This document shows, one piece after another, positions 23,496-41,558 of a stretch of DNA of 64,000 bases (within the stretch, counting starts at the first letter, position 1; every line of letters starts with the position of its first letter). The DNA is from Pseudomonadota bacterium (GTDB taxonomy: Bacteria; Pseudomonadota; Gammaproteobacteria; Burkholderiales; Burkholderiaceae_C): positions 310,001 to 374,000 of the forward strand of contig JAKARB010000001.1 of NCBI GenBank assembly GCA_021819435.1, given 5' to 3'. The notes under the pieces were generated by a model. That model searched no databases and was not told the origin of the DNA. It saw nothing but the letters and a program-made list of their open reading frames with translations. The position numbers and the translations under genes are program-made.

Positions 23496-23663
23496 CGGCT
23501 GCGGGATCTTGGGCTCTGCTCGGATCGGGTTTGTCCTGCCGCCATGCCGCCTTGGGGCGCCTGCGTGGGCCTTCCAGGGCCTTCATATGTGGGGCGGCCC
23601 TCTCATGCGGGCTTTTGTGAGCAAGTGTTAGGCATTACCATGCGGCGGAAATGGAGACGCCCC

Positions 23664-24542: not shown

Positions 24543-24571
24543 GTTGAGTGGGCGGATGCAGGGGCCTTGAA

Positions 24572-24598
24572 CTGAGCGCCTCGACTTGAGGCGCTCAG
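24572..24598. terminator. perfect inverted repeat between convergent genes
   Basis: An 11-bp perfect stem (CTGAGCGCCTC / GAGGCGCTCAG) around a five-base loop lies between the cupin-like gene and the phosphopantetheinyl transferase gene. It is a likely bidirectional terminator, though neither side has a U-tract. Confidence 0.5.
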
Positions 24599-24657
24599 AT
24601 CTGAGAAGTGCACGCTCAATCCTCGTGCTGTTTACCTGCCCCGATCACCAGGCCCTT

Positions 24658-25506
24658 TCATGCGGTCCGTTCATGCGGCCCGGGCATGAGCCAGGCGCAG
24701 GCGGCCCATGCGGCGCAGTCTTCGGGCAAGGGGAGATCGGCCCAGCCCAGTTTGGGCAAGCTGCCGTGTGTGGCCAGGTGGGCGTTCGCCGTGCGCGCGT
24801 GGGTGGCTTCCAGCGTGAGGGTGTCCATCTCGCGATGCAGGCCGGTGCCCAGCGCCTTCAGGCAGGCTTCCTTGCGTGTCCAGGTGCGAAGCAGATGCAA
24901 CTCATCCCCGAGGGGGCCAAGAGTCTCAAGCGGGGCCAAGGGAGTGAGGGGGGCAAGGTGCGTGACGGGCGCCAACGGCGATGCAGAAGTGCCCAGGTGC
25001 CGATGTTCTTCCACGCTGAGGATGCGATGGGCCATCTCAGGCAGGCGTTCGCGGCTGGAGCGCTCTTCGATGTCCACGCCCAGCTCCAGCTTGAAAGACG
25101 TGGCCAGCAGCCCCCATGGGCCGCTGTGGCTCAGGTTGAAGCACACCGGGTGCGCATCGCCGGCCGAGGAATCGTTGAACCGCAGAGCGGGCTTGCCATG
25201 CGGGCCCGCCGTCCACTGAAGCGAGGCGGCGGGGCGCTGGCACAGGTGGCCCAACAGGTGCCGCAGCATGGCCCGAGCGACGCGATGCCTGCGGCCATGC
25301 AGCGGCTGGCGGAAGCGTTGGGCGCGAGCCTGTTCTTCATCGTTCAGGCAGGCTGTGAGCGCTTGGGTGTCCGCCTCTTCGGCGTCCATGTTGAAGAGCC
25401 ACAGGCTTGCATCCTGGCCCTCAGCCAGGGCTTGTCGTCGCCACCTGACTGAGGGGGCGACGCTGGGCCAACCCTCGGGGGTGCTCCATGCTTGCCATGA
25501 CATCAT
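24658..25506 (-). CDS. 4'-phosphopantetheinyl transferase (Sfp type)
   Basis: A protein of about 282 residues that should move phosphopantetheine from CoA onto carrier-protein serines. The family signatures are intact: NLSHSGPWGLLA, then GVDIEERSSRE (Mg-binding Asp/Glu), and WTRKEACLKALGTGL with the conserved Trp-x-x-Lys-Glu-x-x-x-Lys. The length and two-lobed pattern are Sfp-like rather than AcpS-like, so non-ribosomal and polyketide carriers are the expected substrates; the synthase 3 kb away has four. Starts at 25506 or 25503 (two adjacent ATGs) precede SWQAWSTPEGW; longer in-frame extension upstream is unlikely. It is divergent from the acyltransferase gene, sharing an intergenic regulatory region. 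Confidence 0.9.
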   Translation of the reverse strand: MMSWQAWSTPEGWPSVAPSVRWRRQALAEGQDASLWLFNMDAEEADTQALTACLNDEEQARAQRFRQPLHGRRHRVARAMLRHLLGHLCQRPAASLQWTAGPHGKPALRFNDSSAGDAHPVCFNLSHSGPWGLLATSFKLELGVDIEERSSRERLPEMAHRILSVEEHRHLGTSASPLAPVTHLAPLTPLAPLETLGPLGDELHLLRTWTRKEACLKALGTGLHREMDTLTLEATHARTANAHLATHGSLPKLGWADLPLPEDCAAWAACAWLMPGPHERTA

Positions 25507-25520
25507 CGCCTGGGGCCTTT

Positions 25521-25549
25521 TTGACGCTGTATCTTTGATTCTTTGTATT
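25521..25549 (+). promoter_or_regulatory. sigma70-like promoter of the acyltransferase gene
   Basis: TTGACG (25521-25526), a 17-bp spacer and TGTATT (25544-25549) point toward the acyltransferase; transcription would start near 25556. Confidence 0.5.
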
Positions 25550-25600
25550 GGACCGGAATGCCAACGCTGTCGACGTCGCATCATACGATCCGACCCATGG

Positions 25601-25630
25601 GTGATGCATCACGCACCCCATCCGTGATGC
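25601..25630. promoter_or_regulatory. palindromic operator candidate
   Basis: GTGATGCATCAC (25601-25612) is a perfect 12-bp palindrome, and CGTGATGC at 25623-25630 repeats half of it, giving a second inverted repeat with GCATCACG. It lies between the predicted start of transcription and the acyltransferase ATG, where a repressor could act. No regulator gene is adjacent. Confidence 0.35.
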
Positions 25631-25652
25631 CCAGCAGTTCTGGAGACTTGGC

Positions 25653-26750
25653 ATGAGCCCGGTGCTGTCGATTTGGCTTGATGCCTGCCGCATCCTGGCG
25701 GCCTTCGCCGTCTTCCTGGGGCATGCGGTGGGCCTGGGCGTGGCGCCGCCCGCGATGGGCAGCCAGTGGCATCGAAGCGCTGATGACGCGGTGACGGCGT
25801 TCTTCATCATCTCCGGCTTCGTCATCGCGCACACGACCCAGCGACGGGCCGATCAGGGCTTGCGCTCATACATCGTGGCGCGCGCCTCGCGTTTGTACTC
25901 GGTGGCGCTGCCGGCCATCTTCTTCGCGTTCGTGGTGGACCACATCGGCATGTGGATAGACCCTTCGCCTTATGTGCCGGAGTGGCAGTACCCGAGGCCG
26001 TGGCTGTACATCCCGCTGCACCTGGCCTTCCTCGGCGAGACCTGGCTGGGGGCCTTCCAGCCTTTCACGATGGCCCCGTACTGGTCGCTGAGCTACGAGG
26101 CCTGGTACTACGCCTTCTTCGGGTTGATTTTCTTCTTGCGCGGCTGGCAGCGCTGGGTGTTCGCGGGCGCGGTGTTCTTGATCATGGGGCCGCGCATCTG
26201 GCTGCTGATGCCGGTGTGGTTCCTCGGCGTGTGGCTGCATGGGCGCATCGACACCTGGCGCATGCCGGCTGGCGTGGCGCGTGCGTTGATGGCCTTGCCC
26301 GTGCTGGCTTACGCGGCCTTCCTGGCCTTCGGGTGGCAGAAGGCGCTGGACCTGGCTTCGAAGGACCTGTACGGCGTGTTCTCGCGGACCTTGCCCTTCC
26401 CGTTTTCGAGCGGCTCGACGGTGCACGTGCTGTCTGACTACGCGATGGCGGTGATGTTCGCGGTGTTCGTGGTCGGGTGCGCGCACAGCCGGCTGGAGAT
26501 CAGCGGCCAGTTGGCGGAGTGGATCCGCCGTGCCGCCGCCTACACCTTCACCTTCTACCTGCTGCACTTCACGCTGTTCGTGTTCTGCAATGCGCTCGGG
26601 TGGCGTCAGGTGGGGGTGTGGCACTTCGTGGCGATCACCTTGGGTGTGTTCGCTATCACCTGGGCGCATGCGCAGATCGGCGAGTTGCGACGCGGAACTT
26701 ATGCCCGCGTGATCGATCGCATCTTGCCCGCGTTCAAGCCTGGCGCTTGA
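25653..26750 (+). CDS. acyltransferase 3 family membrane protein (OafA-like)
   Basis: A 365-residue integral membrane O-acyltransferase. About ten hydrophobic segments are visible, starting with WLDACRILAAFAVFLGHAVG, which carries the early catalytic-type His, and including SDDAVTAFFIISGFVIAH and WSLSYEAWYYAFFGLIFF, both standard for the family. Such proteins acetylate or acylate sugars, lipids or peptides at the membrane. A GGAGA precedes the start. It converges with the hydrolase gene (17-bp overlap) and diverges from the phosphopantetheinyl transferase, so it may tailor the synthase product or act on an unrelated cell-surface sugar. Confidence 0.88.
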   Translation: MSPVLSIWLDACRILAAFAVFLGHAVGLGVAPPAMGSQWHRSADDAVTAFFIISGFVIAHTTQRRADQGLRSYIVARASRLYSVALPAIFFAFVVDHIGMWIDPSPYVPEWQYPRPWLYIPLHLAFLGETWLGAFQPFTMAPYWSLSYEAWYYAFFGLIFFLRGWQRWVFAGAVFLIMGPRIWLLMPVWFLGVWLHGRIDTWRMPAGVARALMALPVLAYAAFLAFGWQKALDLASKDLYGVFSRTLPFPFSSGSTVHVLSDYAMAVMFAVFVVGCAHSRLEISGQLAEWIRRAAAYTFTFYLLHFTLFVFCNALGWRQVGVWHFVAITLGVFAITWAHAQIGELRRGTYARVIDRILPAFKPGA

Positions 26751-27690
26751 GCCCTGGCAGCACGCGCTGCTTGAGCCAGTCGTCGGTCATGGCGATGAAG
26801 GCGGCCTGGGCGCGGTCTTCGGTCAGCAGGTGATCGGCTTCGCGCAGGAAGCGGAAGCTGACGTGCTTGAGGAAGGGCGCGCCCTTGAACATTGCCCAGA
26901 ACTGGCCTTCGTGGTTGAACCAGTGCGGGTTGCCTTCGGCGAACGAGAAGTGCAGGCTCACGCCGCGATCGACCAGGGTTTGCAGGCGCTTGACCAAGGC
27001 TGCCTTGTCCGGCGGTTGCGAGGGGATGGCCTGCGGGGTGGCTTCCTTGCGAGAGACGGTCGCAGGCGAAAGGCTCAGGGCCCTGGCGATGCGTTGTCGC
27101 ACCTTGCCCACCACGCCTGCAAAGCCGAGTTTGCTCAGGCGCATCGACATGAAGCGCAGCTTCGAGCCGGTGGTAGGGTAGGCGTACATGTCCCACAGCA
27201 GGGCGGCACGCAGGCGCTCGTCTTGCAGACCCAGCAGGTGGGCGACCTCGGCGCCAGAGCAGAAGCCGATCATCAGGAAGCGGGCGCAACCATGTTGGCG
27301 CTCGGCGTGGTCCATCACGGCGCGGCAGTCGGCGATCCACTGCTCCATCATGGGCTTGGGCGTCGCGGCGCGGCTGCTGTCGCCCAGGCCGCTGAGGTCG
27401 AAGCGCACCGAGGCGATGCCCAGGGTGGCGAAGTGCCGCGCCAGGTGCACGTTCATGCGGTTCGGGCCTGAGCGGGGGATCACGCCCGAGTTGGTCAGCA
27501 GGGCGATCACGGGCGGCGGGCCGCCGGCCGATGCGCCGGGCGTGGTCGCTGGGGTGCTGGCTGGTGTGGTGGTGGATGCGGAGGTGGCTGTGGCGGTGGG
27601 CGACGAGCCGACAGGCCAGGTGATGGTGGCGACGAGGTGCTTCGAGTCGCCGAGCACCAGGGTCTCTTCGTGGTGGGCGGGGCGGCTCAT
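26734..27690 (-). CDS. alpha/beta hydrolase, exosortase-associated hydrolase-like
   Basis: A 318-residue alpha/beta-hydrolase-fold protein, last gene of the synthase operon. The start at 27690 overlaps the stop of the preceding hydrolase by 4 bp (ATGA), making longer frames unlikely. The N-terminal strand pair is split by a Thr/Ser/Ala-rich linker (about residues 30-55). Next come ALLTNSGVIPRSGPNRMN and RFDLSGLGDSS, an elbow GFCSGAEVAH with a Ser nucleophile, and a C-terminal READHLLT with the probable His. The layout recalls the 'exosortase A system-associated hydrolase' families, though no exosortase or PEP-CTERM gene is present. A release or editing hydrolase for the thioesterase-less synthase is the working inference. 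Confidence 0.7.
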   Translation of the reverse strand: MSRPAHHEETLVLGDSKHLVATITWPVGSSPTATATSASTTTPASTPATTPGASAGGPPPVIALLTNSGVIPRSGPNRMNVHLARHFATLGIASVRFDLSGLGDSSRAATPKPMMEQWIADCRAVMDHAERQHGCARFLMIGFCSGAEVAHLLGLQDERLRAALLWDMYAYPTTGSKLRFMSMRLSKLGFAGVVGKVRQRIARALSLSPATVSRKEATPQAIPSQPPDKAALVKRLQTLVDRGVSLHFSFAEGNPHWFNHEGQFWAMFKGAPFLKHVSFRFLREADHLLTEDRAQAAFIAMTDDWLKQRVLPGLKRQA

Positions 27691-28523
27691 CGGGTCAGGG
27701 CCTCGAGGATGCGGTTGAGTTCGGGCGGCACGACGGCGGCGCCCATGGCCTCGCTGGACAACCAGTTGGTGGTGCTTTGCAGCGGCACCCAGTGCAGCCG
27801 GTCGCGAACCTGTGCTGGCAGGCCTTGCGACCAAGTTTGCAAAGCAGCTTCGGGCGCGCAAAGGGTGATGTCGATACAGCGCTCGACGGCCAGGGGCAGC
27901 CAGGGCGCCAAGGCGGGCAAGGTCTGCAGGTCGTTGTTTAGCTGCGCACCGATGTGAAAGCCCAGGACCGAACCGGGCAGGCGTGGCTCCTGGACCATGC
28001 CTTGTGCCAGCAGCTCAGGCCAGGGTTGGTCGAGTTGCAGGGCCATCTCCTGGCGGTGGGCTTCGAGCAGTGTGCGCAGGTGCTCGGCGCCATCGGCAAT
28101 GGGCTCCCACAGCACGAGCCGGCGCGGGGCACGGGGCACGCGCAGGGCCGCCTGCAGCATCAGGTTGGCGCCCAGGCCCATGCCGAACCAGTCGATGTGG
28201 GTGGGCGAAGCGGGCAGGCAGGCGTCGAGCAGGCAGGACTGCGCTTCTTCGATGTCGCGGGACCAGTCAGACATCGACTGGTCGGCTTCTTCACCGGGTG
28301 AGTCGCCGGTGCCGTGGTAGTCAAAGCGCATCACCGAGGCGCCGGTGCGAGCCAGGCGGTCAGCCAGCACGCGGTACATGCTGGCGCTGCGCGTGGCGGC
28401 CAGCCCCATCGGTCGGGCCAGGAGGAAGGCCCCACGGGGTGTGCCGTTTTCGTCTGGATGCTGGATGAGGCCGACGGCGCTGCGCCATGCCGGCCCGAAT
28501 CGTCGGGGAACGAGTGTCGTCAT
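27687..28523 (-). CDS. alpha/beta-hydrolase-fold protein lacking the nucleophile serine
   Basis: A 278-residue protein 9 bp downstream of the synthase stop. It has the hydrolase-fold layout: GAFLLARPMG, RFDYHGTGDSPGEEADQS, then an elbow reading FGMGLGANLML, where Gly occupies the position normally held by the catalytic Ser. LVLWEPIADGAEHLRTLL follows. To my recollection the exosortase-associated hydrolase 2 family has a similar altered elbow and a comparable LLWQP-type strand, so relationship to that family is likely. It may be a non-catalytic partner or chaperone of the second hydrolase rather than an enzyme. It overlaps the next gene by 4 bp. Confidence 0.65.
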   Translation of the reverse strand: MTTLVPRRFGPAWRSAVGLIQHPDENGTPRGAFLLARPMGLAATRSASMYRVLADRLARTGASVMRFDYHGTGDSPGEEADQSMSDWSRDIEEAQSCLLDACLPASPTHIDWFGMGLGANLMLQAALRVPRAPRRLVLWEPIADGAEHLRTLLEAHRQEMALQLDQPWPELLAQGMVQEPRLPGSVLGFHIGAQLNNDLQTLPALAPWLPLAVERCIDITLCAPEAALQTWSQGLPAQVRDRLHWVPLQSTTNWLSSEAMGAAVVPPELNRILEALTR

Positions 28524-28532
28524 GCCTGGGGG

Positions 28533-31500
28533 TCACCTCGATCCGTCGGTGCCGGTGCGCTGTGTCAGCGCGTCGCGCGCGCGGTCCAGCCAGCCTCGGC
28601 GCTTGGGCGGTGTGGTGTCGGCCTGGGGGACTGGTCGATCAGATCGGGCAGGAGGGCAGTGGAGCGTGTCGTTGGCGGAGTTCGCGCCGGGGCTTGCGCT
28701 GGTGCTTGAGCCCAATGAGGTGTCAGCCTGCGCGGGGGCGGCGGAGGCCGCGATCTGGGCCAGCGTTTCGTACACGAATCGGCGTGCATCGACGTCGACG
28801 CCGAGGGCCTTGCGGGTTTCCTCAACGGCGACCATGGCGAGCAGCGAGTTGCCACCGAGCTCGAAGAAGTTGTCTTGCGCCGTGATGCCGTTGACACCCA
28901 GCAGGTTCTGCCAGATGCCGATGAGCACGGCGTCGGCGGGCTGGGCTTTGGGGGGCATGGACGGCGGCGTTTGTGCGGTCGGCTGTGAGGGAGATTGCGC
29001 TGATGCGCCCATGCTGCCTTGTGTCGCGGGGTGTGCAGAGGACGTGGGCGTTGCAGCGCGCGCAGCAGCATCTGGGGTCTGCGCCGCCTCGGCGAGCTGG
29101 GGTTGCGGCCTTGACTGCGAGGTGGTTTGCGTCGCGCTCTTTCCGGATGATTGCGCGGCAGATGGCGGGGGCGCGATGTTCAGGCACTGCAACTGCCCAT
29201 CTGCGCGCCAGCGCAGCGAGACGGCGTGTTGATCGTCTCCGGCCAGGTGGCCAGGGGCGTTTACGCCCACGGCTTGGCCACGCTGGTCGAGCAGGCTCAG
29301 GCCATGCAACAGCGGCTGGCCGCAAGCGCCCATGTCGCGCTCGTCGGACAGCCAGCCGGCCGCCACAGGCAACCCGGATGCGGGATGCGGCAACAGCGAA
29401 GCGACGTGAACCGGTGCGGCGGACAGGGGGGCCAGCACCGACGCATGGGCTTCGCGGGCGGACAGGATGATGGCGTGTGGTCGGCCGGCCGGATTGCGCA
29501 CGGCCGCCAAGGCTTGGCTGGCGCTCAAGCACGCCGATGACGATGTGCTGGCGGGGATCGCATCGGTGGGGCCGGCCAGCAGGGTGGCGACGTTTTTCAC
29601 GCGGGCCGCGAGCAGCAAGGCCACTCGGGTCATGGCTGGCAGGTCGGAGCCGATGGTGAGCTGCTGGCTGAAGCCCGCGCCCAGCTGGCTCGCCAGTCGG
29701 CAGGCCACTTCGTTGACCTCTGCCGCGGTGACTGCTCGTGCTGTGCCGGCAGCGCCATCGCTTGGCGCGCTGGTTGTGAGCGCCGAGGGCATCGCACCTG
29801 AAACGAAACCTGGCACGAAGCCCGGCACGAGGTGCGCGCCCAGGTGCAAGGCACCCGTCACGGCTTGTTCAGAGATCACGGCATGCAAGCCAGGCGTGCC
29901 CTTCAGACCTGCGCCCTGGGTGGCTGGCGCCACGCAGTTCAGGCCCAGTTGCCAGACGCCCAGGCAGGCCACCACCTGGGCCACCGGGTCGGCGATGTCC
30001 ACGCCCACGGTGGCTTGGGTGGGCACGTGCTGGCCGAGGTGGGCGCGCAGCGTGTCCGCACAGTGCTGCACGCGCTTGGCAAGCTCGGCGGCCGACACGA
30101 TGCGGGTGCCCGAGCTCAGGGCGATGGCATCGGGCTGCGCGGGCTTGCGCACCGCGTCGAGCGCGGCCAGCCCGTCGCCCTGGGTACCCAGCGCGGCGGG
30201 CTGCCAGCTCTGCAGCAGGCGAGCCTCGGCCTCGGTGGGGGCCAGCAGTTCACTCATCAGCGTGTTGGGCTGAGCGATCAGGCGTTGAACGACGGTGACG
30301 TAGCGGTCGCGCAGGGCGTCGGCCGTGGCGGGCAGCAGCACGTCGGTGTCGTACTGGAAGCCGCCTGCGATCTTGTCCTTCTCTTCGACCAGCCAGAAGT
30401 TCAGGTCTTCGGTGGCGCCGTACTTCAGCAGGTTGACGCGCTCGTGGTCGAGGTCGCCCCAGCGGGTGAGGCGATCACGCACGTCCTGGAAATTGAACAG
30501 CACCTGGTAGAGCCGAGCCGACTTCAGCTTGAGCTGTTGCGCGATGAGTTCGAAAGGCACGTCCTGGTTCGAGAGCGCACCGGTGACTTGGCGGCGCACC
30601 TCGCGCACCCAGTCCAGGCCGCTGAGATCGTTCATGGCCGGCTGCACGGCCACGCGCATGGGCAGCATGTTGTTGAAGAAGCCCATGACGTGTTCCAGCT
30701 CGGGCGCGGGGCGGCCGCGCACGGGCAGGCCGATGCCGGGGGCGCTCTCGTCCATCCACTCCGACATCAGCGCGGCGTAGACGGCCAGGAAGACGATGGA
30801 CACGGGGCTGCCGGTCTGGCGCGCGATGGCCCGCACGGCATCCGACTGCGTCTGGTCGAAGCCGAGGAAGGCGGTGGCGCCGTTGCCCGAAGGTGTTTCG
30901 GGGCGGGCGCGGTCGATCGGTGGCTCGGACAACTGCGGGTGGCGGTTGGCGAGGTCTTCCCAGAAGCGCAGCTGTTGCTTGATCTCGTCGCCCTTCATCC
31001 ACTCGTTGTGCCAGGCGGCGAAGTCGCCCTGGTCGACCACGAGCTCGGGCAGCGGCGACGTGGCTGCGCCTGATGCGAAGGCCGCGTAGTGCGCCGACAG
31101 CTCGCGGTAGAGCACGTCGAACGAAGCGCCGTCCCACACGATGTGGTGTGCCATCAGGAAGAAGCCGTGGTGGTCGTCGGCGAGCTTGTAGAGCTGGCTG
31201 CGGATCAGGGGCGCATGGTCGAGCTCGAAGGTCTGCGCGACCAGCTCGTTCATGTGGCGCTGCATGGCGGCTTCGCGTTCGGCCTCGGGCAGGTTGGTGA
31301 GGTCGAGAAGGGGGATGTCGGGCGGTTGCAGCGCGTTGTCGATGAGTTGGATGAGCTCGCCGTTGCGGCGCACGATGCTGGCGCGGAAGGCCTCCTGGCG
31401 GCGCGCCATCTCGCGGTAGGCGCGGTTGAAGGCGGCCAGGTTCATCGGGCCACGGAAGCGGTGGCCAGACGGTGCGTGGTAGACGACGCGGCCTGGCTGG

Positions 31501-34500
31501 AAGGCCTCCATGAAGGCCACGCGTTGTTGCATCACCGTCAACGGGGCGGTGTCGCGGTCGGCGCGGCGCACCAGCGGCGGACGAGCGGGTGCGGCACCGG
31601 CACCTTGCTGGGCCACGATGGCGGCGGCCAGCTTGCCCACGGTGGGCGATTCGAACAGCGCGCGCAATTGCAACTGCACGCCGAATTCGCGGTTGAGCTG
31701 GGCGATCAGGCGGGCCGCCAGCAGGGAGTGGCCACCCATCGAGAAGAAGTCATCCTCCAGGCCAAGCGGGCCGCTTTTGAGCACGGCCTGCATGGCGCGG
31801 GCCACGCCCTGCTCGGTCTCGGACGAAGGCGCGGTGCCGGTGCTGGCCGGCGGCAGGTCTTCAACCGAAGGCGCAGGCAGGGCCTTGCGGTCGACCTTGC
31901 CGTTGGGCAGCAGGGGCAGGGCGGGCAGCGCGATCACGAACTGCGGGACCATGTAATCGGGCAGGTCTGCCTTGAGCGCCTGGCGCACGGCTTGCGCATC
32001 GACCGTGTGGCCGGGCTGAGTCTGCACGTAGGCCACCAGGCGGATGTCGCCAGGTTGGTCCTCGCGGGCCATGACCACGGTGCGCGAGACGCCGGGCTGC
32101 GCGGCCAGGCGGGTTTCGATCTCGCCGAGTTCGATGCGGTAGCCGCGGATCTTGATCTGGAAGTCGAGGCGGCCCAGGTGTTCGATCTGGCCGTCTGCGG
32201 CCCAGCGGGCGAGGTCACCAGTGCGGTACAGCAGCGCGCCGGGCCGCTCGCTGAACGGGTCGGGGATGAACTTCTCGGCGGTGAGCTCGGGGCGGTGCAG
32301 GTAACCCTGGGCCACGCTCAGGCCACCCACGCACAGCTCGCCCTCCTGGCCCACGCCACAGGGCATGCCTTGTTCGTCCAGCACCCAGCATTGGGTGTTG
32401 TCGACCGGGCCGCCCACGGTGATGCGCTGGTGGTCGGTGACGCGGCAGCCGGTGGCGTAGACAGTGGTTTCGGTCGGGCCGTAGAGGTTCCACAGCGCCA
32501 CGCCGGCATGCAGCAGGTGCTTGGCCAATGCGGGTGTGAGCGGCTCGCCGCCGGTCATGCCCTTGAAGCCCACGGGCGGCTTCCAGCCTGCGTCGGCCAG
32601 CATGTGCCAGGTGGTGGGCGTGGCCTGCATCACGTTGATGCCTTCGGATTCGATGAGAGCGGCCAGGGCTTGCGCGTCCATGGTCTCTTCGCGGCGGGCC
32701 AGCACCACGCGGGCGCCGGTGACCAGCGGCAAGAAGAGCTCGGGCACGGCCATGTCGAAGGACAGGGTGATGACGGCGAGCAGGCGGTCGCTGGCCACCA
32801 TGCCGGGGTCGCGGCGCATGCTGGCCATCAGGTTGCACACAGCATCTTGCTGCAACACCACGCCCTTGGGCTTGCCGGTGGAGCCGGAGGTGTAGATGAC
32901 GTAGGACTGGGCATCCGCCGGGGCGGGGCTGGACCAGGTGACGGCGTGGGTGGGCGCGGCGTTGAGTGCGGGCAGGTCGTCGTCCGTGCGCAATTGGGCA
33001 GCGCGGGGCATGCCGCTCAAGCTGGCGTGCGCGGACTCGGTGATGACGGCTTGCAGCTGCGCATCGGCCGTCATGTGGTGCAGGCGATCCTTCGGGAAGC
33101 TCGGGTCGAGCGGCACGTAGGCACCGCCGGCCTTGAAGATGCCCAGCAGCGCGGGCACGAGCTCGATGTTGCGGCTCATGCAAACGCCGACCAGCGAGCG
33201 GTGCGTCACGCCCAGGCCTTGCAGCAGGTGGGCGAACTGGTTGGCGCGGGCTTCGAGCTGCGCATAGGTCAGGCGCTGGCCTTGGGCCACCACGGCGATG
33301 GCGTCCGGCGTTTGCTGCACCTGGCGGAAGAACCATTGCTCGACGCGCGCGCCCGGCTCGATGGGCACGCGCGTGGCTTCGTTCCAGGCGCGGATGCGCG
33401 GGTCCACCAGCGCCAGGCGGGCGGCTTGCGGCGACGGGGCCTGGGCGTCGATGGGGGCGTCCAGGCCCTGGGCCAGCAGCCGGCACTGGTCGATCAGGGC
33501 CTGCACCAGCTCCTGCGCGCGCTGCATGCTGCAGAACTCGCTGCTGTGGTGCAGGTCGAGCGTGATGACATCACCCTGGTCGTAGAAGTTGAACAGGATC
33601 TCGCTGAGCAGGGCCTGGCGGCGGCCTTCTTCCATCTCGGCCCGCACGGCGTCGTCATACGACAGCTCGACCTTGGGGTTGAGGTTGAAGAACACGCCGG
33701 TGAGCGGTGGCCGGTCGCCGCTGCCACGGATGCCGAGCGCGCGGGCCACGGTGCCTTGCGTCACCAGCGGGTACTCCAGCGCGTCCATGAGGTGGCTGCG
33801 CACGCGGGCCAGCACCTGGCGAGGCGTCTCCCCGACCTTGGCGCTCAGGCGCAGGGGCAGGTCGAGCACGCCATCGGCGAGCAGCGGGCCGTGCTGGGCC
33901 AGGGCCTGCGAGGCATAGGGCACGCTGACCACGAATTCGTCTTGACCCGAGCGCTGGCGCAGCACCACGCTGACGGCCGCGAGCATGAGCTGGAAGAGCG
34001 TGGCGCCGGCCTGGCGGGCCTGCTGGCGCAGGGCCTGGGTGGTGGTGGCGTCAATGCGGCCACGTGCGGTGTCGGCGGCGAAGGTGCGCGGGCCGCTCGG
34101 GGTGCGGTCACCCAGCGTGAGCGGCGCGGGTGGGTTGGCCAGCACACGCTTCCAGTGGGCCAGGCTTTCCTGACCTTCGGGGCCTTCGAAGCGGGCTTGT
34201 TCGGCCACGCTGAAAGCCAGTGGCGATTCGGCGGGTTCGAAGTCGGGTTGCAGGCCCAGGCAGCGGGCGCGGTAGGCCTGCGCCAGCTCAGCGTTGAACA
34301 CGCTGGCGGCCCAGCCGTCGAAAATGACGTGGCTGGCTACGACGTGCACGGCCACGCGGCCATCGGCGAGCTCGATCAAGCTGGCGGCGGCCAGCGGTGC
34401 GCGGTCGAAAGGCAGGTCCTGGTGGTTGGCCTGGTCGCACCACGCGTCGAGCGCGGCGTTGGCGTCGGTGTGCTGGCGCAGGTCCACCTCGGTGATGGGC

Positions 34501-37500
34501 ACCTGGGCGCCATCAACGATCACCTGGCGAGGCTCTTCCAGGTCGAAGCGGGTGCGGAAGGCGTCGTGGCGGTCGAGCACGTCGCGCAGGGCCTGCTTGA
34601 GGGCGCCCCGGTTGACATCGCCAGACAGGCGCAGGCAGAAGGCTTCGTTGAGGGCTTGGCGGGCGCCTTTGTCGAAGGCGCCGGCCAGCCAGCGTTCGGT
34701 TTGGCCGGGGCTCAGCGGGGCCTCTTTCAAGGCATTCGCCGCGTTCAAGGCACTCACGCCGCCCGAAGCCTTGGCAACGCCTGGTGCGCTCAACGCTGTC
34801 GACTTCGTGGCCTCACTCGGCTTGTCGCTCTTGCTGCCCGAGCCGCCTTGCGGGCCATTGCCAGCGGGGCCGCCCGATCCACCATCGCGAGGCGAGATCA
34901 GGCCCAGGCCGATCAGCTCGTCCATCACGCCAATGAAGGTGTCTGCGATGCGGTCGCAATCGGCATCCGTCATCGCCTCGGTCACGAAGTGGCCGAACTG
35001 CTCGTACAGGTGCAGGCCCTTGAAGCGGGCGAGGTAGTAGAACAGGCTGATGTTGCGGACGTTGTCGTCCCATTGCAGGCGCCACAGCGAAGCGCAGTGC
35101 ACGGCCTTGACCGGCGCGCCACGGCTGGCGAAGGCGCTGTTGATGCGGTCAACCATGCGCTGGGTGCGCGAGTTGATCGACTGATAGAGCGCGCGGCCGC
35201 CGCGCTTGATGTGCAGCAGCGAGGCGTGGGCTGCAGCCAGGGCCAGCGGGTGGCGCACGAAGGTGCCGGCGAAGTAGGTCACGCCTGCTTCGGGGTAGGA
35301 GTCGTCGCCGTATTGCCAGTGGCCGCCGTCCAGCGCGTCGAGCCACTGGCTGTTGCCGGCGATGGCCGCGAAAGGCAGGCCGCCGCCGATGATCTTGCCG
35401 TAGGTGGCGATGTCGGCGCGCACGCCGTAGAACTCTTGCGCACCACCCGGGGCCACGCGGAAGCCGGTGACCACCTCGTCGAAGATCAGCGCGGCGCCGC
35501 CCTTCGTGGCGATTTCGCGCAGTTGCTGCACGAAGGCCGTGGGCTGCAGCGTCGGGTACTTGTTCTGGATCGGCTCGATCATGATGGCCGCCAGCTCGTG
35601 CGCGCACTTGCGCAGCACCTCCAGCGACTCGGGGCTGTCGTAGTCGAGCACCAGGATGTTCTCGACCGCGTTGGCCAGGATGCCCGGCGCGGCCGACAGC
35701 GAACGCAACTGCTTGGTGCCACGCACGATCACCTCGTCGAAGATGCCGTGGTAGCTGTTGTTGAAGATGGCGATCTTCTTGCGGCCGGTGACGGTGCGCG
35801 CGATGCGCATGGCGCCCATCACGGCTTCGGAGCCGGTGTTGCAGAAGGCCACGCGCTCCATGCCCGTGAACTCGGAGATGAGCTGCGCCACATCGGCGGC
35901 CAGCGGGTGCTGAGGGCCGACCTCGATGCCCTTGTGCAACTGGTCGATCATGGCCTGGGTCACGTCTTCGCGCTTGTAGCCCAGGAAGTTGGCGCCGAAG
36001 CACGACAGCAGGTCGATGTACTCGTTGCCGTCGATGTCCCACACGCGTGCGCCCTCGGAGCGGTCGGCCACGATGGGGTAGACCAGGTCCTTCCACTGCG
36101 GGTTGAAGCCGGTGACCACGCGCGGGTCGGCCATCACCTTGCGGTGCTGCTGGCTGAACGATTTGGAGCGGCCGGTGCGAGCGTTGTAGCGGCGGATGAA
36201 ATCGTCGATCCACTGCTGCTGTGCCGGGGTGTACTCGTTCTGGGCCGACAGCACGATGCGCGCCGAGGCACCGAAGGGCTTTTCCACCAGCGCATTCTTG
36301 GACGGCTGGGCGTCGGCCGTGGGCGTGGCGTTCGAGGCGGGCATGCCGCTCACCGGTCCAGCCACTTGAGCCTGGCCTGTCGCGGGTGTCTCTGCGGGTT
36401 GCGCCACCATGGTCGGCGCCATGGCAACGGCCTGCACGGCTTGCAGCGGCTGACCTGCCAACAGCGCCAGTTGCTGCTGCATCAACACCATCTGCTGCTG
36501 TATGACAGCTTGCAGGCCATTGCCCCCTACCACGGGTGCCACGCCGGCCACGGGCATCAGCGCCTGTTGCATCACCGGCGCTTGGGCAAACACCTGTTGC
36601 TGAGCGGTGGCCATGGCGGTGGCAGGCGCAACGGCCTGGGCCTCGGGCGCCTGCACCGGCGGGGCTTCGGCAAACCGATCAGCAGGCAGTTCACCATCGA
36701 AGAACGCGGCCAGCTTGGGCAGGGTGTCGAGGTCTTCCAGCAGCCGGCGGAAGCGCAGGCGGATGCCGAAGGTCTGTTCGAAGGCCAGCGTCGCTTGCGT
36801 CAGCGACAGGGAATCGAGGCCCTGGTCCACGAAGGTGGCGTTGCGGTCGGTCGCTTCAGGCGGCAGGCCAGCCACATCCGCCAGGATGCGGACGATTTCT
36901 TGCTCGATGCGGGGCAGTCGATTCATGGCGGTCTTCGGAATGGGACTGGAAACGGTGGGCAACTGAGGCGACGATTCGGTGATCAGCTCGGGCGCGGCGA
37001 CGCGTCGCTTGAACCAATGCACCTCGCGGCGGAAAGGGTAGGTGGGCAGGGCCACGCGAGGTGTGCGCGAGGGCAGCGGCCAGGCGGGCGAGAGCCCCAG
37101 GCACCAAAGCTGGCCAAGGGCTTGCAGCGCGTGCCGTGCAGGGGGCAGGGCGGCTTGCGCGCTGCTCAGCACGGGCACCACCTTCGGCAAGGCGCCCTGG
37201 ATGCGGTGTTGGCGGATCAGCGCCGTCAGCGCCTGGCCTGGGCCCACTTCGATGAAGGTGACATCGCCCAGCGCCTGCTCGGCCTGAACGGCTTGGCTGA
37301 AAGCGACGGGTGCGCGAACCTGCGAGGCCCAATACGCGGGGTCGGTGGCCTGCTCAGCGCTCAGGCGGGTGCCACTCACGCAGGAGTAGACGGGCAACGC
37401 TGGTGCTGACAGCTTGGCGCGGGCCAGCGCAGCCTGCACGCGTGGCAAGGCACCCGCCATCGAGGCGCTGTGGAAGGCGTGTGACACCTTCAGCCGGGTG

Positions 37501-40500
37501 ATGGCGATGCCGCGTTGTTCGAGCGATGTGGCCAATGCATCGATGTCGGCGTGCGGCCCTGCCAGCACGGTGAGCTCGGGCGCGTTCAGGGCGGCCACGT
37601 CGATGCCGGCTGGCAAAGGCTGCAAGGCCGCCAGCCCGGTGCGAACGGCCAGCATGCCGCCAGCCGGTTGCGCGAACATGGCTTCACCGCGCTCGATCAC
37701 CGCGCGCATCGCGTCCTGCGGGCTGATCACGCCAGCATGGCATGCGGCGGCGTACTCGCCGATGCTGTGGCCGATCAGCGCATGTGGGCGCAGCCCCAGG
37801 CTGTCGAGCCAGGCCGCCAGCGCATGAGAGACCGCGAACAGCGCAGGCTGAGCCAGGCGGGTCTCGGCCAGGCGCGAAGCGGCTTCTTCATCGGTGGGCA
37901 AAGCCTCTACCAGCAGGTGGCGCAGCGTGGCGGCCAGCTCGGGCGGGGCCGCAGCCAGCACCTCGTCGAAGGCGAGCTGGAAAGCTGGGAACTGCTCGAC
38001 CAGCTCGCGTGCCATGCCCGGGTGCTGCGAACCTTGGCCGGGGAACGCGAAGACGATGCGGCCACCACGCTGGGCCGCCTGTGCTGATGCCTGACCCGAT
38101 GCCTGACTTTGTGCGATGGCCCGCAACCCCGCGATGGCCTCGCTGCGATCACCGGCCACGACGCACTGGCGCAGAGGCATCGCCTGGCGTCCGCGCATCA
38201 GGGTGGCTGAAACGGCCGCCAGCGGCAGTTCAGGATGGCGCTCAAGGTGGTCTGCCAAGTCGCCTGCTCGTTGCAGCAAGGCCTCGGGGTGGCGAGCTGA
38301 GATCGGCAGCAGTTGCAGCCCGGAGGCGTCGGGCAAAGGCTGGAGCGCCGCAGCGGGTGCTTCGGCCAAGACCACGTGCGCGTTCGTGCCGCCCACGCCG
38401 AATGAGCTCACGGCGGCGCGGCGAGGCGTCTCGCCGCGAGGCCATTCAAGCACCTGGGCCGACACCTGGAACGGCGAGTGCGCGAAGTCGATCTGCGGGT
38501 TGGGCTGATCGAAATGCAGCGTGCCAGGGATGTGGCCATGGTGCAGCGCCAGCGTGGCTTTGATCAGGCCTAGCACGCCAGCGGCCGCAGCCAGGTGGCC
38601 AATGTGGCCCTTAACCGAACCCAGCGTGCAAAAGCCGGTGTCCGGCGTGTCTTGCGTCCAGACGCGGGTGAGCGCCGCCACCTCGATGGGGTCGCCCAGC
38701 GCCGTGCCGGTGCCATGGGCCTCGACATAGCCGATGCCGCGCGCGTTGACCTGGGCGTGGTCCAGCGCCATGCGGATGGCCTGGGCCTGGCCGCTCACAC
38801 TCGGCGCGGTGAAGCTCGCCTTGTCGCCGCCATCGTTGTTCAGGCCCACGCCTTCGATGACGCCATAGACCGTGTCGCCATCGGCGAGCGCTTGCGAGAG
38901 GCGCTTGAGCACCACCACGCCGCCGCCACTGCCGAACACCGTGCCCGAGGCCTGCGCATCAAAAGGGCGGCAGCGCCCATCTGCCGATTCCATGCCGCCT
39001 TCGACGTGCAGGTAGCCGCCGGTTTGCGGCACCATCACCGAAGAGCCGCCCGCCAGGGCGATGTCGCACTGGCCCTGCGCCAGCGCATGCCAGGCTTGCG
39101 CCACGGCCACCAGCGAGGTCGAGCAAGCAGTGTGGATGGACACCGCAGGGCCGTTGAAGTTGAGCCGGTGGGCCACGCGGGTGGCGACGTAGTCTTTCTC
39201 GTTGGCCAGCATGGCCGCGAACTCGCCCGCTTGCGCGATCAGCTCGGGGTTCTCGGCCCGCATCGCCGGCAGGTAGGCGTTGTTCGAGGTGCCGGCGTAG
39301 ACGCCGACGCGATCGCCCGTGTCGCCACCCAGGCGGCTCGGATCAATGCCTGCGTGTTCGAGGGCGCTCCAGCACAGCTCCAGGAAAAGCCGCTGTTGCG
39401 GGTCGGTCAGCGTGGCTTCGCGGGCGGAGACGCCAAAGAAGCCCGCGTCGAAGCAGTCAGCCTGGTGCAGCACGCCACGCGCGGCCACGAAGTTGGGCTG
39501 CTCGCGCCATGCCGCAGGCACGGACGGGTCGATTTCTTCGGGGCGGAAGCGGCGCAGCGTTTCGACGTTGTCGAGCAGTTGCTGCCAGAAGGTTTCGACA
39601 TCGGCGGCGGTGCCCACGCGCACGGCCATGCCGACGATGGCCATGCCCTCGCCGGTGCTTGATGTGGCTTGACGCCGGGCGCGCGAGGCGCTGGCGCCAC
39701 CTTGGGCCGCACTGGCTTGTGATGCCAGCAGGGAGCTCAGGCCCGCCACGGTCGGGCGGTCGTACACATCGGCCACGTTGAGCTGGATGCCTTGTTCGCG
39801 GGCGCGGCTGACGAAGCGCATCACCAGCAGCGAGCGGGCGCCATGGTCGAAGACGTTGGCGTCGTCGGGCAACTGATCTGCGCCCAGCAGTTCGATCCAG
39901 AGTGCGCGCAGGCGATCGATCAGCTCGCCCGACGAGGGCCCGGTGGCGCCCGAGCCCGATGCGCGAGAAGCCGGCACGGCTGATGGCAGCCCGCGCCGGT
40001 CGATCTTGCCGCTGGGGGTGGTGGGCAGGCGATCCAGCACGGCAAACCGCACGGGCACCATGTATTCAGGCAGTCGGTCGCGCAGCCAGGCACGCCACGC
40101 GGTGATGGTCTGGTCGGCGGTCGCAGAGCCCGGGCGCAAGACCACGTGGGCCGTCAACACGCGGCCGCCATCCGGGTCGGCCGGCGCGGTGACGACGGCG
40201 TCCTGCAAGCCGGGGTGGCTCATCAGCGCCAGTTCGATGTCGCCCGGTTCGATGCGGAAACCGTCGACCTTGAGCTGCTGGTCGGCGCGGCCCAGGTAGG
40301 TGAGCGTGCCATCGGGGGACTGGCGCACGAGATCACCGGTGGCATACCAGCGGGCTGGCACGCCATCGGGGCCGGCCAGCGGGGCGAGGAAGCGCTCAGC
40401 CGTGAGGTCGGGGCGGCCCAGGTAGCCTTCTGCGAGCGTGTCGCCGCCCAGCATCAGCTCGCCGGTCTGTTCGCCTGCGGGTTCGGCTGTCTGCGCGCTT

Positions 40501-41558
40501 TCGGCCTCGTCATCCTGCACGGGGCGCAGCCACACACGTACATGGGGCAAGGCCGTGCCGATGGGCGGGATCTGCGGCCAGGCGCTGGCGTCACCCTCCA
40601 ACTCAAAAGCGGTGACGACGTGGGTTTCTGTCGGGCCGTAGTGGTTGTGCAGCGAAGCTCCTTGAAGCCTGCCGAACAGAGCGCGGATGTCTGGTGTGAC
40701 TTGCAGTTGCTCGCCCGCGCTGACCACATCCTGCAGGCAAAGCGGGTGCGAGCCAGGGCGGCTGTTCGCCTCGGCATCGGCTTGGGCCAGCATCTGCAAG
40801 GCCACGTAGGGCAGGTACAAGCGCTGCACCCGCTCGCGCGCCAGCAATTCACGCAGGCGGGCCGGGTCGCGGCGGTCGGCATCGTCGGGCAGGATCAGGG
40901 TGCCGCCAGTGGCGAGTGTGGAGAAAATCTCCTGGAAGTGCACGTCGAACGACAGCGGCGCGAATTGCAAGGTGCGTGCGGGCTGGCCCAGTCGGGCATG
41001 GGCCACGTGCCAGCCGATCAGGTGAGCGAGTGGCGCCAGACCCATGGCCACACCCTTGGGGCGGCCGGTCGAGCCGGAGGTGAACAGCACGTAGACCAGG
41101 TCACCTTCGCCGGCGTGAGGCGGGGCCTCGGTGGTGCGCGGCGAGGCCAGGCCGGGCACCTCGTCCAGTCGCGATTGCAGGGTGGCCAGGGCCTCGGGCT
41201 CGCCGACCACGGCGCGCACGCGGGCGTCTTCCAGCATGGCTTGCAGCCGGTCCGTCGGGTAGCCCAGGTCGAGCGGAACATAGGCGAGGCCCGATTCGAC
41301 GGCCGCCACGATGGAGACGATGGTCTCCACGCTGCGGCTGGCGGCGATGCCGATGCGATCTCCAGCCACCATGCCTGCGGCACGCCAGCCATCGGCGCGG
41401 CGGGCAACCTGGTCGGCCAGCACCTGGTAGCTCAGCACCTGTTGGCCGCTCGACAACGCGGGTGCGTCGGGCCAGCGTTGCGCGGCCCTCTGCAAGGTCT
41501 GGCGGAGCGGGTGCAGGTCGGGTGCTGGCATGTCGTTGTTGGGGCGGGGGCTTGTCAT
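28533..41558 (-). CDS. hybrid NRPS-PKS megasynthase with aminotransferase domain
   Basis: A single 4341-residue synthase. Domains in order: A1 (about 20-525; FTSGSTGRPKG, NHYGPTET, YATGDL, a final GKIDRR); PCP1 (DHGARSL, Ser576); KS (639-1064; Cys812 in TACSTSL, EAHGTGT, KGHIGHL); AT (about 1165-1480; GHSIGE Ser1265, HAFH 1360-1363, the malonyl-type motif); ACP (DQGLDSL, Ser1583); a Gln/Met-rich helical linker; a class III PLP aminotransferase (about 1785-2210; Lys2055 in YGKIIGGGLP); C1 (about 2265-2700; SHVIFDG, His2410, first motif His replaced by Ser); A2 (about 2725-3230, all core motifs); PCP2 (Ser3278); C2 (about 3325-3760; intact HHIVWDG); a decayed A region (about 3790-4126) without ATP-binding motifs; PCP3 (GGNSL, Ser4238); an Arg-rich tail. 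There is no KR, MT or thioesterase. Inferred chemistry: starter acid, one malonyl extension, beta-ketone converted to beta-amine, then amide bond to the A2 amino acid. The architecture recalls McyG/McyE and mycosubtilin-type aminotransferase modules. A1 lacks a preceding C domain, so it is the loading module. The product is not predictable from this. Confidence 0.95.
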   Translation of the reverse strand: MTSPRPNNDMPAPDLHPLRQTLQRAAQRWPDAPALSSGQQVLSYQVLADQVARRADGWRAAGMVAGDRIGIAASRSVETIVSIVAAVESGLAYVPLDLGYPTDRLQAMLEDARVRAVVGEPEALATLQSRLDEVPGLASPRTTEAPPHAGEGDLVYVLFTSGSTGRPKGVAMGLAPLAHLIGWHVAHARLGQPARTLQFAPLSFDVHFQEIFSTLATGGTLILPDDADRRDPARLRELLARERVQRLYLPYVALQMLAQADAEANSRPGSHPLCLQDVVSAGEQLQVTPDIRALFGRLQGASLHNHYGPTETHVVTAFELEGDASAWPQIPPIGTALPHVRVWLRPVQDDEAESAQTAEPAGEQTGELMLGGDTLAEGYLGRPDLTAERFLAPLAGPDGVPARWYATGDLVRQSPDGTLTYLGRADQQLKVDGFRIEPGDIELALMSHPGLQDAVVTAPADPDGGRVLTAHVVLRPGSATADQTITAWRAWLRDRLPEYMVPVRFAVLDRLPTTPSGKIDRRGLPSAVPASRASGSGATGPSSGELIDRLRALWIELLGADQLPDDANVFDHGARSLLVMRFVSRAREQGIQLNVADVYDRPTVAGLSSLLASQASAAQGGASASRARRQATSSTGEGMAIVGMAVRVGTAADVETFWQQLLDNVETLRRFRPEEIDPSVPAAWREQPNFVAARGVLHQADCFDAGFFGVSAREATLTDPQQRLFLELCWSALEHAGIDPSRLGGDTGDRVGVYAGTSNNAYLPAMRAENPELIAQAGEFAAMLANEKDYVATRVAHRLNFNGPAVSIHTACSTSLVAVAQAWHALAQGQCDIALAGGSSVMVPQTGGYLHVEGGMESADGRCRPFDAQASGTVFGSGGGVVVLKRLSQALADGDTVYGVIEGVGLNNDGGDKASFTAPSVSGQAQAIRMALDHAQVNARGIGYVEAHGTGTALGDPIEVAALTRVWTQDTPDTGFCTLGSVKGHIGHLAAAAGVLGLIKATLALHHGHIPGTLHFDQPNPQIDFAHSPFQVSAQVLEWPRGETPRRAAVSSFGVGGTNAHVVLAEAPAAALQPLPDASGLQLLPISARHPEALLQRAGDLADHLERHPELPLAAVSATLMRGRQAMPLRQCVVAGDRSEAIAGLRAIAQSQASGQASAQAAQRGGRIVFAFPGQGSQHPGMARELVEQFPAFQLAFDEVLAAAPPELAATLRHLLVEALPTDEEAASRLAETRLAQPALFAVSHALAAWLDSLGLRPHALIGHSIGEYAAACHAGVISPQDAMRAVIERGEAMFAQPAGGMLAVRTGLAALQPLPAGIDVAALNAPELTVLAGPHADIDALATSLEQRGIAITRLKVSHAFHSASMAGALPRVQAALARAKLSAPALPVYSCVSGTRLSAEQATDPAYWASQVRAPVAFSQAVQAEQALGDVTFIEVGPGQALTALIRQHRIQGALPKVVPVLSSAQAALPPARHALQALGQLWCLGLSPAWPLPSRTPRVALPTYPFRREVHWFKRRVAAPELITESSPQLPTVSSPIPKTAMNRLPRIEQEIVRILADVAGLPPEATDRNATFVDQGLDSLSLTQATLAFEQTFGIRLRFRRLLEDLDTLPKLAAFFDGELPADRFAEAPPVQAPEAQAVAPATAMATAQQQVFAQAPVMQQALMPVAGVAPVVGGNGLQAVIQQQMVLMQQQLALLAGQPLQAVQAVAMAPTMVAQPAETPATGQAQVAGPVSGMPASNATPTADAQPSKNALVEKPFGASARIVLSAQNEYTPAQQQWIDDFIRRYNARTGRSKSFSQQHRKVMADPRVVTGFNPQWKDLVYPIVADRSEGARVWDIDGNEYIDLLSCFGANFLGYKREDVTQAMIDQLHKGIEVGPQHPLAADVAQLISEFTGMERVAFCNTGSEAVMGAMRIARTVTGRKKIAIFNNSYHGIFDEVIVRGTKQLRSLSAAPGILANAVENILVLDYDSPESLEVLRKCAHELAAIMIEPIQNKYPTLQPTAFVQQLREIATKGGAALIFDEVVTGFRVAPGGAQEFYGVRADIATYGKIIGGGLPFAAIAGNSQWLDALDGGHWQYGDDSYPEAGVTYFAGTFVRHPLALAAAHASLLHIKRGGRALYQSINSRTQRMVDRINSAFASRGAPVKAVHCASLWRLQWDDNVRNISLFYYLARFKGLHLYEQFGHFVTEAMTDADCDRIADTFIGVMDELIGLGLISPRDGGSGGPAGNGPQGGSGSKSDKPSEATKSTALSAPGVAKASGGVSALNAANALKEAPLSPGQTERWLAGAFDKGARQALNEAFCLRLSGDVNRGALKQALRDVLDRHDAFRTRFDLEEPRQVIVDGAQVPITEVDLRQHTDANAALDAWCDQANHQDLPFDRAPLAAASLIELADGRVAVHVVASHVIFDGWAASVFNAELAQAYRARCLGLQPDFEPAESPLAFSVAEQARFEGPEGQESLAHWKRVLANPPAPLTLGDRTPSGPRTFAADTARGRIDATTTQALRQQARQAGATLFQLMLAAVSVVLRQRSGQDEFVVSVPYASQALAQHGPLLADGVLDLPLRLSAKVGETPRQVLARVRSHLMDALEYPLVTQGTVARALGIRGSGDRPPLTGVFFNLNPKVELSYDDAVRAEMEEGRRQALLSEILFNFYDQGDVITLDLHHSSEFCSMQRAQELVQALIDQCRLLAQGLDAPIDAQAPSPQAARLALVDPRIRAWNEATRVPIEPGARVEQWFFRQVQQTPDAIAVVAQGQRLTYAQLEARANQFAHLLQGLGVTHRSLVGVCMSRNIELVPALLGIFKAGGAYVPLDPSFPKDRLHHMTADAQLQAVITESAHASLSGMPRAAQLRTDDDLPALNAAPTHAVTWSSPAPADAQSYVIYTSGSTGKPKGVVLQQDAVCNLMASMRRDPGMVASDRLLAVITLSFDMAVPELFLPLVTGARVVLARREETMDAQALAALIESEGINVMQATPTTWHMLADAGWKPPVGFKGMTGGEPLTPALAKHLLHAGVALWNLYGPTETTVYATGCRVTDHQRITVGGPVDNTQCWVLDEQGMPCGVGQEGELCVGGLSVAQGYLHRPELTAEKFIPDPFSERPGALLYRTGDLARWAADGQIEHLGRLDFQIKIRGYRIELGEIETRLAAQPGVSRTVVMAREDQPGDIRLVAYVQTQPGHTVDAQAVRQALKADLPDYMVPQFVIALPALPLLPNGKVDRKALPAPSVEDLPPASTGTAPSSETEQGVARAMQAVLKSGPLGLEDDFFSMGGHSLLAARLIAQLNREFGVQLQLRALFESPTVGKLAAAIVAQQGAGAAPARPPLVRRADRDTAPLTVMQQRVAFMEAFQPGRVVYHAPSGHRFRGPMNLAAFNRAYREMARRQEAFRASIVRRNGELIQLIDNALQPPDIPLLDLTNLPEAEREAAMQRHMNELVAQTFELDHAPLIRSQLYKLADDHHGFFLMAHHIVWDGASFDVLYRELSAHYAAFASGAATSPLPELVVDQGDFAAWHNEWMKGDEIKQQLRFWEDLANRHPQLSEPPIDRARPETPSGNGATAFLGFDQTQSDAVRAIARQTGSPVSIVFLAVYAALMSEWMDESAPGIGLPVRGRPAPELEHVMGFFNNMLPMRVAVQPAMNDLSGLDWVREVRRQVTGALSNQDVPFELIAQQLKLKSARLYQVLFNFQDVRDRLTRWGDLDHERVNLLKYGATEDLNFWLVEEKDKIAGGFQYDTDVLLPATADALRDRYVTVVQRLIAQPNTLMSELLAPTEAEARLLQSWQPAALGTQGDGLAALDAVRKPAQPDAIALSSGTRIVSAAELAKRVQHCADTLRAHLGQHVPTQATVGVDIADPVAQVVACLGVWQLGLNCVAPATQGAGLKGTPGLHAVISEQAVTGALHLGAHLVPGFVPGFVSGAMPSALTTSAPSDGAAGTARAVTAAEVNEVACRLASQLGAGFSQQLTIGSDLPAMTRVALLLAARVKNVATLLAGPTDAIPASTSSSACLSASQALAAVRNPAGRPHAIILSAREAHASVLAPLSAAPVHVASLLPHPASGLPVAAGWLSDERDMGACGQPLLHGLSLLDQRGQAVGVNAPGHLAGDDQHAVSLRWRADGQLQCLNIAPPPSAAQSSGKSATQTTSQSRPQPQLAEAAQTPDAAARAATPTSSAHPATQGSMGASAQSPSQPTAQTPPSMPPKAQPADAVLIGIWQNLLGVNGITAQDNFFELGGNSLLAMVAVEETRKALGVDVDARRFVYETLAQIAASAAPAQADTSLGSSTSASPGANSANDTLHCPPARSDRPVPQADTTPPKRRGWLDRARDALTQRTGTDGSR

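Follow-up and report, generated by a model that had tools for sequence, protein, structure and literature searches.

The gene at 28533..41558 raises the question of what a single, very large synthase makes in a freshwater-type bacterium, how its product leaves the enzyme, and how the locus was assembled. It lies in a 64,000-nucleotide stretch of DNA, here called the window, from a genome of an Aquabacterium-like genus. Our analysis suggests that the synthase probably assembles, on one protein, a small peptide with a beta-amino acid derived from proline.

Architecture of the synthase and its predicted product

The first-pass annotation described a single-protein hybrid NRPS/PKS without giving its strand. 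ORF calling and translation place it on the minus strand as one ORF of 4341 aa with zero internal stops, and the frame is thus intact on re-reading. Pfam domain prediction on the translation recovers all the named domains, as two AMP-binding, two Condensation, four PP-binding, one ketoacyl-synt, one Acyl_transf_1 and one Aminotran_3 stretch. A chance match is excluded because the whole-protein E-values of the main domains range from 3e-25 to 6e-148, every one above its curated cut-off. The catalytic residues were also read correctly, as KS Cys812, AT Ser1265, ACP Ser1583 and aminotransferase Lys2055 all lie in canonical contexts. The earlier domain order holds for every domain that it listed, but it overlooked a relic adenylation domain (A*) between the last C and PCP. 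The full order is therefore A1-PCP-KS-AT-ACP-AMT-C1-A2-PCP-C2-A*-PCP, laid out as follows:

28533..41558, minus strand: hybrid NRPS/PKS, 4341 aa (ORF, translation, Pfam)
39984..41516, minus strand: A1, residues 15-525, code DVQYVAHVVK (proline) (Pfam, code alignment)
39714..39971, minus strand: PCP1, HGARS motif (Pfam, motif)
38334..39650, minus strand: KS, Cys812 (Pfam, motif)
37179..38066, minus strand: AT, Ser1265, HAFH (Pfam, motif)
36699..36926, minus strand: ACP, Ser1583 (Pfam, motif)
34929..36266, minus strand: class III aminotransferase (AMT), Lys2055 (Pfam, motif)
33429..34736, minus strand: C1, SHVIFDG (Pfam, motif)
31854..33341, minus strand: A2, code DMPQMGLVYK (glycine-like, uncertain) (Pfam, code alignment)
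31599..31841, minus strand: PCP2 (Pfam, motif)
30204..31571, minus strand: C2, HHIVWDG intact (Pfam, motif)
29064..30191, minus strand: A*, degenerate adenylation domain, residues about 3790-4165 (core motifs, hhalign)
28794..28997, minus strand: PCP3, GGNSL with Ser retained (motif)

Two motifs are non-standard, i.e., HGARS in PCP1 and SH in place of HH in C1, and the Pfam scan of the 4341-aa protein finds no thioesterase domain.

Our comparison set comprises 21 distinct near-complete synthases, the window synthase included. Repeats are counted once (L109, L113, L115, L116, L117, L123 and L124 equal L029, L030, L031, L032, L039, L041 and L036, respectively), and L033, L040, L042, L043, L016 and the partial L125 stand outside the set. 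The hydrolase counts given below also take in L033, L125 and L048, while L114 is cut by contig ends.

Adenylation specificity codes were read via alignment. The first code takes the form DVQ[YF][VI]AHVVK in all 21 synthases, and the DVQYVAHVVK of the window is given as Pro for several lipopeptide synthetases in the excerpted part of PMC9113097. As the A1 code is identical to these entries, the starter can be named as proline. A starter other than proline itself, either a different cyclic imino acid (pipecolate or dehydroproline) or a proline bearing a substituent, is improbable: variants of this code class do accept the proline analogue AZC, according to an excerpt of PMC12283262, but the exact match is to the Pro code of the lipopeptide synthetases. 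Given proline on A1, the front half should therefore yield 3-amino-3-(pyrrolidin-2-yl)propanoyl-ACP.

The A2 residue is named with less certainty. Among the 21 synthases, DILQLGMVWK occurs in 16, DVWHLSLVDK in L118-L120, and the DMPQMGLVYK of the window elsewhere in L114 alone. In the excerpted part of PMC12283262, DILQLGMIWK belongs to Gly-activating domains and DVWHLSLVDK to Ser; we found neither DMPQMGLVYK nor DILQLGMVWK itself in the open-access literature searched. Resemblance to the DILQ-type codes suggests a glycine-like, albeit uncertain, substrate. The specificity calling that had been proposed as a check thus gives a proline code for A1 and, less certainly, a glycine-like one for A2.

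The AT motif HAFH is presumably of the malonyl type, and the best solved match shown for the intact class III aminotransferase region is the mycosubtilin synthase aminotransferase. Both features support the earlier proposal that a beta-amino acid would be built from a starter and malonate. In our scheme, A1 would load L-proline onto PCP1, KS and AT would extend prolyl-PCP by one malonyl unit, and the aminotransferase would turn the beta-keto group into an amine. C1 would then couple the resulting 3-amino-3-(pyrrolidin-2-yl)propanoyl unit to the glycine-like residue loaded by A2. The proposal that the beta-amino acid is linked to one amino acid is compatible with this A2 step, but it is incomplete, as a second C-PCP with a relic A domain follows.

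A* has none of the five adenylation core motifs, and it aligns with intact A domains by hhalign at E 4e-39 over 416 columns with 17% identity. The last A domain is intact (5/5 motifs) in nine of the 21 synthases and has 0/5 motifs in 12, 11 of them with a relic and one (L038) with a plain C-PCP; this state changes at least twice on the back-half tree. When the window and eight orthologues with a relic are aligned, the relics are 21-30% identical to the window A*, compared with 45-68% for C2. In two close pairs (L118/L119 and L118/L120), w is 0.22-0.23 for A* and 0.04-0.08 for C2; between the window and L112 it is 0.96 for A*, from a poor alignment. These values indicate that constraint on A* is relaxed yet present in the L118 close pairs, and A* may therefore have a role that our scheme does not cover.

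Despite the dead A*, C2 and PCP3 would add a second unit, and A2 most likely charges PCP3 too. C2 and PCP3 look intact in a module without a working A domain, and charging in trans is the reading that we prefer. Condensation with a free soluble amine is known from VibH-type systems. By analogy, PCP3 might contribute no amino acid, with C2 joining the chain to such an amine and A*-PCP3 serving as scaffold only. The dead A* and the absence of an intact last A domain from 12 of the 21 synthases would fit this as well, but in 11 of these 12 the Ser motif of the carrier that follows the final C domain is retained (the twelfth, L114, is contig-cut there), which suggests that PCP3 is still loaded. 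We consider the scaffold role unlikely, though not to be dismissed, and keep A2 charging PCP3 as the preferred reading.

Loss of function in the second C domain of some relatives was also considered and rejected: these domains have no HHxxxDG, but their HHxxxDA keeps H, H and D.

The hydrolase pair and neighboring genes

Downstream of the synthase, five genes follow:

27687..28523, minus strand: HYD2, alpha/beta hydrolase, GMGLG, no Ser at the nucleophile position, hydr2_PEP-like below cut-off
26734..27690, minus strand: HYD1, alpha/beta hydrolase, Cys nucleophile (GFCSG), hydr1_PEP-like below cut-off
25653..26750, plus strand: membrane acyltransferase (Acyl_transf_3) (Pfam)
24658..25584, minus strand: phosphopantetheinyl transferase, ACPS superfamily; HetI model match below its cut-off
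23544..24542, plus strand: Cupin_8 (JmjC-like), HxD...H in the translation, possible hydroxylase

The start of HYD1 overlaps the stop of HYD2 by ATGA, and the HYD1 frame is open up to 27861. The motif GxCS[GA] with its Cys nucleophile is found in all 22 aligned HYD1 homologues. HYD2 carries GMGLG in eight and GxRLG in 14 of its 22 aligned homologues, none of which has Ser at the nucleophile position. The pair lies downstream of 19 of the 21 distinct synthases, the exceptions being L114, where the contig ends, and L038, whose locus holds no HYD-type hydrolase.

For the wider family we took the best 80 of 568 confirmed relatives, 65 of which are distant loci (L044-L108, AMT 51-57% identical). 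By tblastn, HYD homologues occur in five of these 65 (L048, L080, L088, L099 and L101), titled Proteobacteria, Gammaproteobacteria or, for L080, Lysobacter. None was found within the flanks of the other 60, nor specifically in the Bacteroidota loci L047, L072 and L104, which carry a TE domain. In L080, L088, L099 and L101 the pair again sits beside aminotransferase-bearing synthases. The first A code in L099 and L101, DILIIGGIM, differs from the proline code, so a proline starter is no precondition for the pair. In a Hydrogenophaga MAG (L037:19295-20934, minus strand), the cluster is adjoined by a further HYD1/HYD2 pair, which is divergent.

As the synthase lacks a thioesterase domain, HYD2/HYD1 would release the product in trans via the HYD1 cysteine. 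Stand-alone hydrolases frequently edit, and these two could do so instead of releasing. The pair would then be a type II proof-reading thioesterase and the chain would leave spontaneously when the pyrrolidine or the beta-amine attacks it intramolecularly; the predicted product does have two free amines that could cyclise. We regard this as a serious but less likely account, as it leaves the synthase with no other release domain recognized by Pfam, and the pair is so regularly placed behind the synthases and not found in the three TE-bearing Bacteroidota loci. In the favored scheme, with HYD2/HYD1 as the releasing enzymes, the adjacent phosphopantetheinyl transferase would prime the carrier domains, and the cupin and the acyltransferase may tailor the product. 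We assign a probability of roughly 0.6 to this scheme as a whole, i.e., a proline-beta-amino acid line with A2 charging PCP3, release by HYD2/HYD1 and tailoring by nearby genes, as read from sequence.

The same genome contains two more multi-gene NRPS loci outside the window (C16 194-224 kb and C7 208-221 kb), with ORFs of up to 4788 aa.

Distribution and exchange of one cassette downstream of the aminotransferase

The aminotransferase is 98% identical to that of a Burkholderiales MAG (L029) and 89% identical to that of Aquabacterium commune DSM 11901 (L032), the best named species listed. A search for syntenic clusters, proposed earlier, was carried out: of 42 genus genomes, 19, the host's own included, have an ACP-aminotransferase region orthologous to that of the window, at 75-100% identity. 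The KS-AT piece is matched in 21 of the 42 with an E-value no higher than 1e-100; in 18 of these the identity is at least 62%, while the matches of G021, G022 and G026 are just 48-52% identical. The first-pass annotation did not recognize this exact compact architecture from a characterized betaproteobacterial pathway. The same build is common among close relatives in the genus, and it remains the case that we found no characterized product of this architecture, Bacteroidota clusters included, in the open-access literature searched.

In nine of the 42 genomes, dus and a gene resembling 3-hydroxyisobutyryl-CoA hydrolase (ech) flank the cluster at a distance of 18-21 kb from each other. In 13 other genomes 20-152 bp separate the ends of the dus and ech matches, and nine of these 13 are without the orthologous ACP-aminotransferase region; G004, G014, G016 and G034 have this close spacing with the cluster located elsewhere. 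The remaining 20 genomes comprise 12 without a dus and/or ech match, three with the two on different contigs and five with a spacing of 0.8-12 kb.

Among the 65 distant loci from the best 80 of 568 relatives, 53 have A-PCP-KS-AT-(ACP)-AMT on one frame. The first code of 41 of these 53 fronts is of the proline-type DVQ, and in 25 of these 41 the next adenylation code starts with DILQ; other next codes are DAFWLGGTFK (L057), DFWNIGMVHK (L063) and DPMNLGLVCK (L087). In all three Bacteroidota loci, Pfam identifies the next protein as C-A-PCP-TE, which therefore points to release in cis, and adds a phosphopantetheinyl transferase. The gammaproteobacterial L048 carries C-A-PCP-C-A-PCP and two hydrolases (Pfam). 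The partial L125 (G030:C154) has two successive adenylation domains after C, Ser-type then Gly-type, with the look of a rearranged module. A viral origin was rejected, as the nine loci matched in a viral collection share 30-34% identity with just a portion of the query, and so was a plasmid origin, as the 94 plasmid records at E 1e-40 are all below 60% identity.

Comparison with the sister species, whose single genome supplies both L029 and L126, shows that one block of the locus is not common to both:

23450..34880, no strand: block not common to the sister (exchanged cassette), approximate borders (DNA identity, trees, dS)

DNA identity to the sister is 85% from 46375 to 34880, beyond which the sequences are 66-68% identical or unalignable, and it is 85-90% again from 23443 to 15000, except in the GGDEF gene at 21252-22244. 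Inside the block, protein identity is 29-53% (HYD2 33, HYD1 30, cupin 53, PPTase 29), and the acyltransferase gene has no match in the sister locus; flanking proteins are 88-94% identical, with LigB at 83%. The sister thus carries another cassette in place of everything between the aminotransferase/C linker and the last of the five downstream genes. This natural half-cluster exchange is our strongest new result.

The sister cassette includes one GDSL-lipase-like gene and one gene without a Pfam match (L126:4647-6645). Adjoining the exchanged block is a response-regulator/GGDEF gene that the sister locus lacks and L127 has. Outside the block, a GMC oxidoreductase-like gene (19549-21207) is 92.5% identical to the sister.

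The front tree places the window with L029, L110 and L111, and the back-half tree places it with L114 and L112. In both cases AU tests reject a tree that holds the alternative group together (p 4e-7 for the front, 2e-11 for the back), with the qualification that the LG+G4 trees were built quickly and contain some long branches, and that the groups to be tested were chosen once the pattern was known. HYD1 gives the same picture as the back tree by pairing the window with L112 (L114 is a short contig without HYD1), and the back type changes at least three times on the front tree among 10 front-clade rows. Relative to the sister, dS is 0.54-0.71 for A1, KS and AT, 0.21 for AMT and 1.07-1.10 for C1, A2 and C2, while six flanking genes give 0.29-0.55.

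A back half that merely evolves fast, with no exchange, would be in line with its higher dN/dS than the front half in both window pairs, and the front-half dS outside AMT is already at or above that of the flanking genes. We consider this very improbable, as dS as well as dN climbs at the AMT/C1 border, to about twice the highest value of the six flanking genes, and as the front and back trees conflict, with the reservations on trees and post hoc groups given above, and HYD1 sides with the back. An exchange is thus by far the favored explanation. Compared with L112, dS is 0.25 for AMT and 0.55-1.22 for A1, KS and AT. AMT has the lowest dS of the eight regions measured in both window pairs, and in the L118 pairs it is just slightly below the other regions. 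The low values fit a role of AMT as a homology arm for crossover; alternatively, they may reflect strong codon constraint.

Comparison with known systems

The KS-AT-ACP-AMT-C order and the catalytic residues identify the synthase as a hybrid NRPS/type I PKS with an embedded aminotransferase. Its individual parts are of known kinds, and it represents an uncharacterized natural product pathway and no new kind of machine. Our open-access literature searches did not turn up the combination of a proline front, a relic A domain, a Cys-hydrolase pair acting in trans and an exchange at the AMT/C linker, and those aimed at the product, the architecture or the hydrolase pair likewise gave nothing pertinent. 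If our reading is correct, a widespread uncharacterized pathway can be given a scaffold, a proline-derived vicinal diamine acid. The locus would also show a junction where PKS-NRPS lines in nature withstand the exchange of half a cluster, useful in engineering, and give a testable function to the orphan hydrolase pair of exosortase-associated family models.

This last pair, the exosortase-A associated hydr2_PEP/hydr1_PEP (TIGR03101/TIGR03100), shows 24-40% local identity to HYD2/HYD1. HYD1 scores 43.4 bits against a curated cut-off of 168.45 for hydr1_PEP and HYD2 scores 75.6 against 202.75 for hydr2_PEP, which places both outside these families, although the HYD2-HYD1 order, the GxC in HYD1 and the Ser-less nucleophile position in HYD2 all match. 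Matches to hydr2_PEP over cut-off occur in 19 of 120 genomes of the order, and none in the window's own genome. Among 12 such loci inspected, the hydr1 nucleophile motif is GLCDA in 12 and GLRxG replaces GxSxG in hydr2 in 11 (the pattern was not matched in L168); where the two genes form separate frames, as in 10 loci, hydr2 is upstream of hydr1, and L171 and L173 were each read as a single long frame. Both systems therefore have an asymmetric hydrolase pair in common. A joint reading, in which HYD2/HYD1 is a two-subunit cysteine off-loader acting in trans that would also explain the unassigned hydr1/hydr2_PEP pair, and AMT is the recombination hinge for swaps of a whole cassette (back end, release and tailoring) under a fixed proline front, is tentative, and we hold it to be somewhat more doubtful than not.

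MycA of mycosubtilin/iturin and McyE of microcystin contain KS-AT-ACP-AMT-C units, and the class III aminotransferase is likewise embedded between ACP and C in our synthase. The starter differs: here the same protein adenylates an amino acid, proline by its code, whereas MycA and McyE use a fatty acid or phenylpropanoid chain. The iturin/mycosubtilin lines combine a fatty acyl starter with lipopeptide modules, and the microcystin/nodularin lines combine a phenylpropanoid starter with several PKS modules and glutamate/arginine modules. Membership of the former was rejected on the proline code of the starter A domain, and of the latter on the Pro and Gly-like codes and the presence of one KS and one AT only. 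Closer in build are the Bacteroidota clusters (L047 Mucilaginibacter oryzae, L072 Pedobacter antarcticus, L104 Bacteroidia MAG), which have the six-domain front order, the proline-type first code and a DILQ-type second code. They differ in having two proteins, a cis thioesterase and no detected HYD homologue, and their AMT is 54-55% identical to that of the window. Finally, natural recombination of cyanopeptolin NRPS (PMC2533009) and natural A-domain substitution in NRPS (PMC7486941) have been described, so that recombination is known to shape assembly lines in nature; in the present locus the exchanged unit starts at the aminotransferase/C linker and takes in the accessory genes, and the front half is unmoved.
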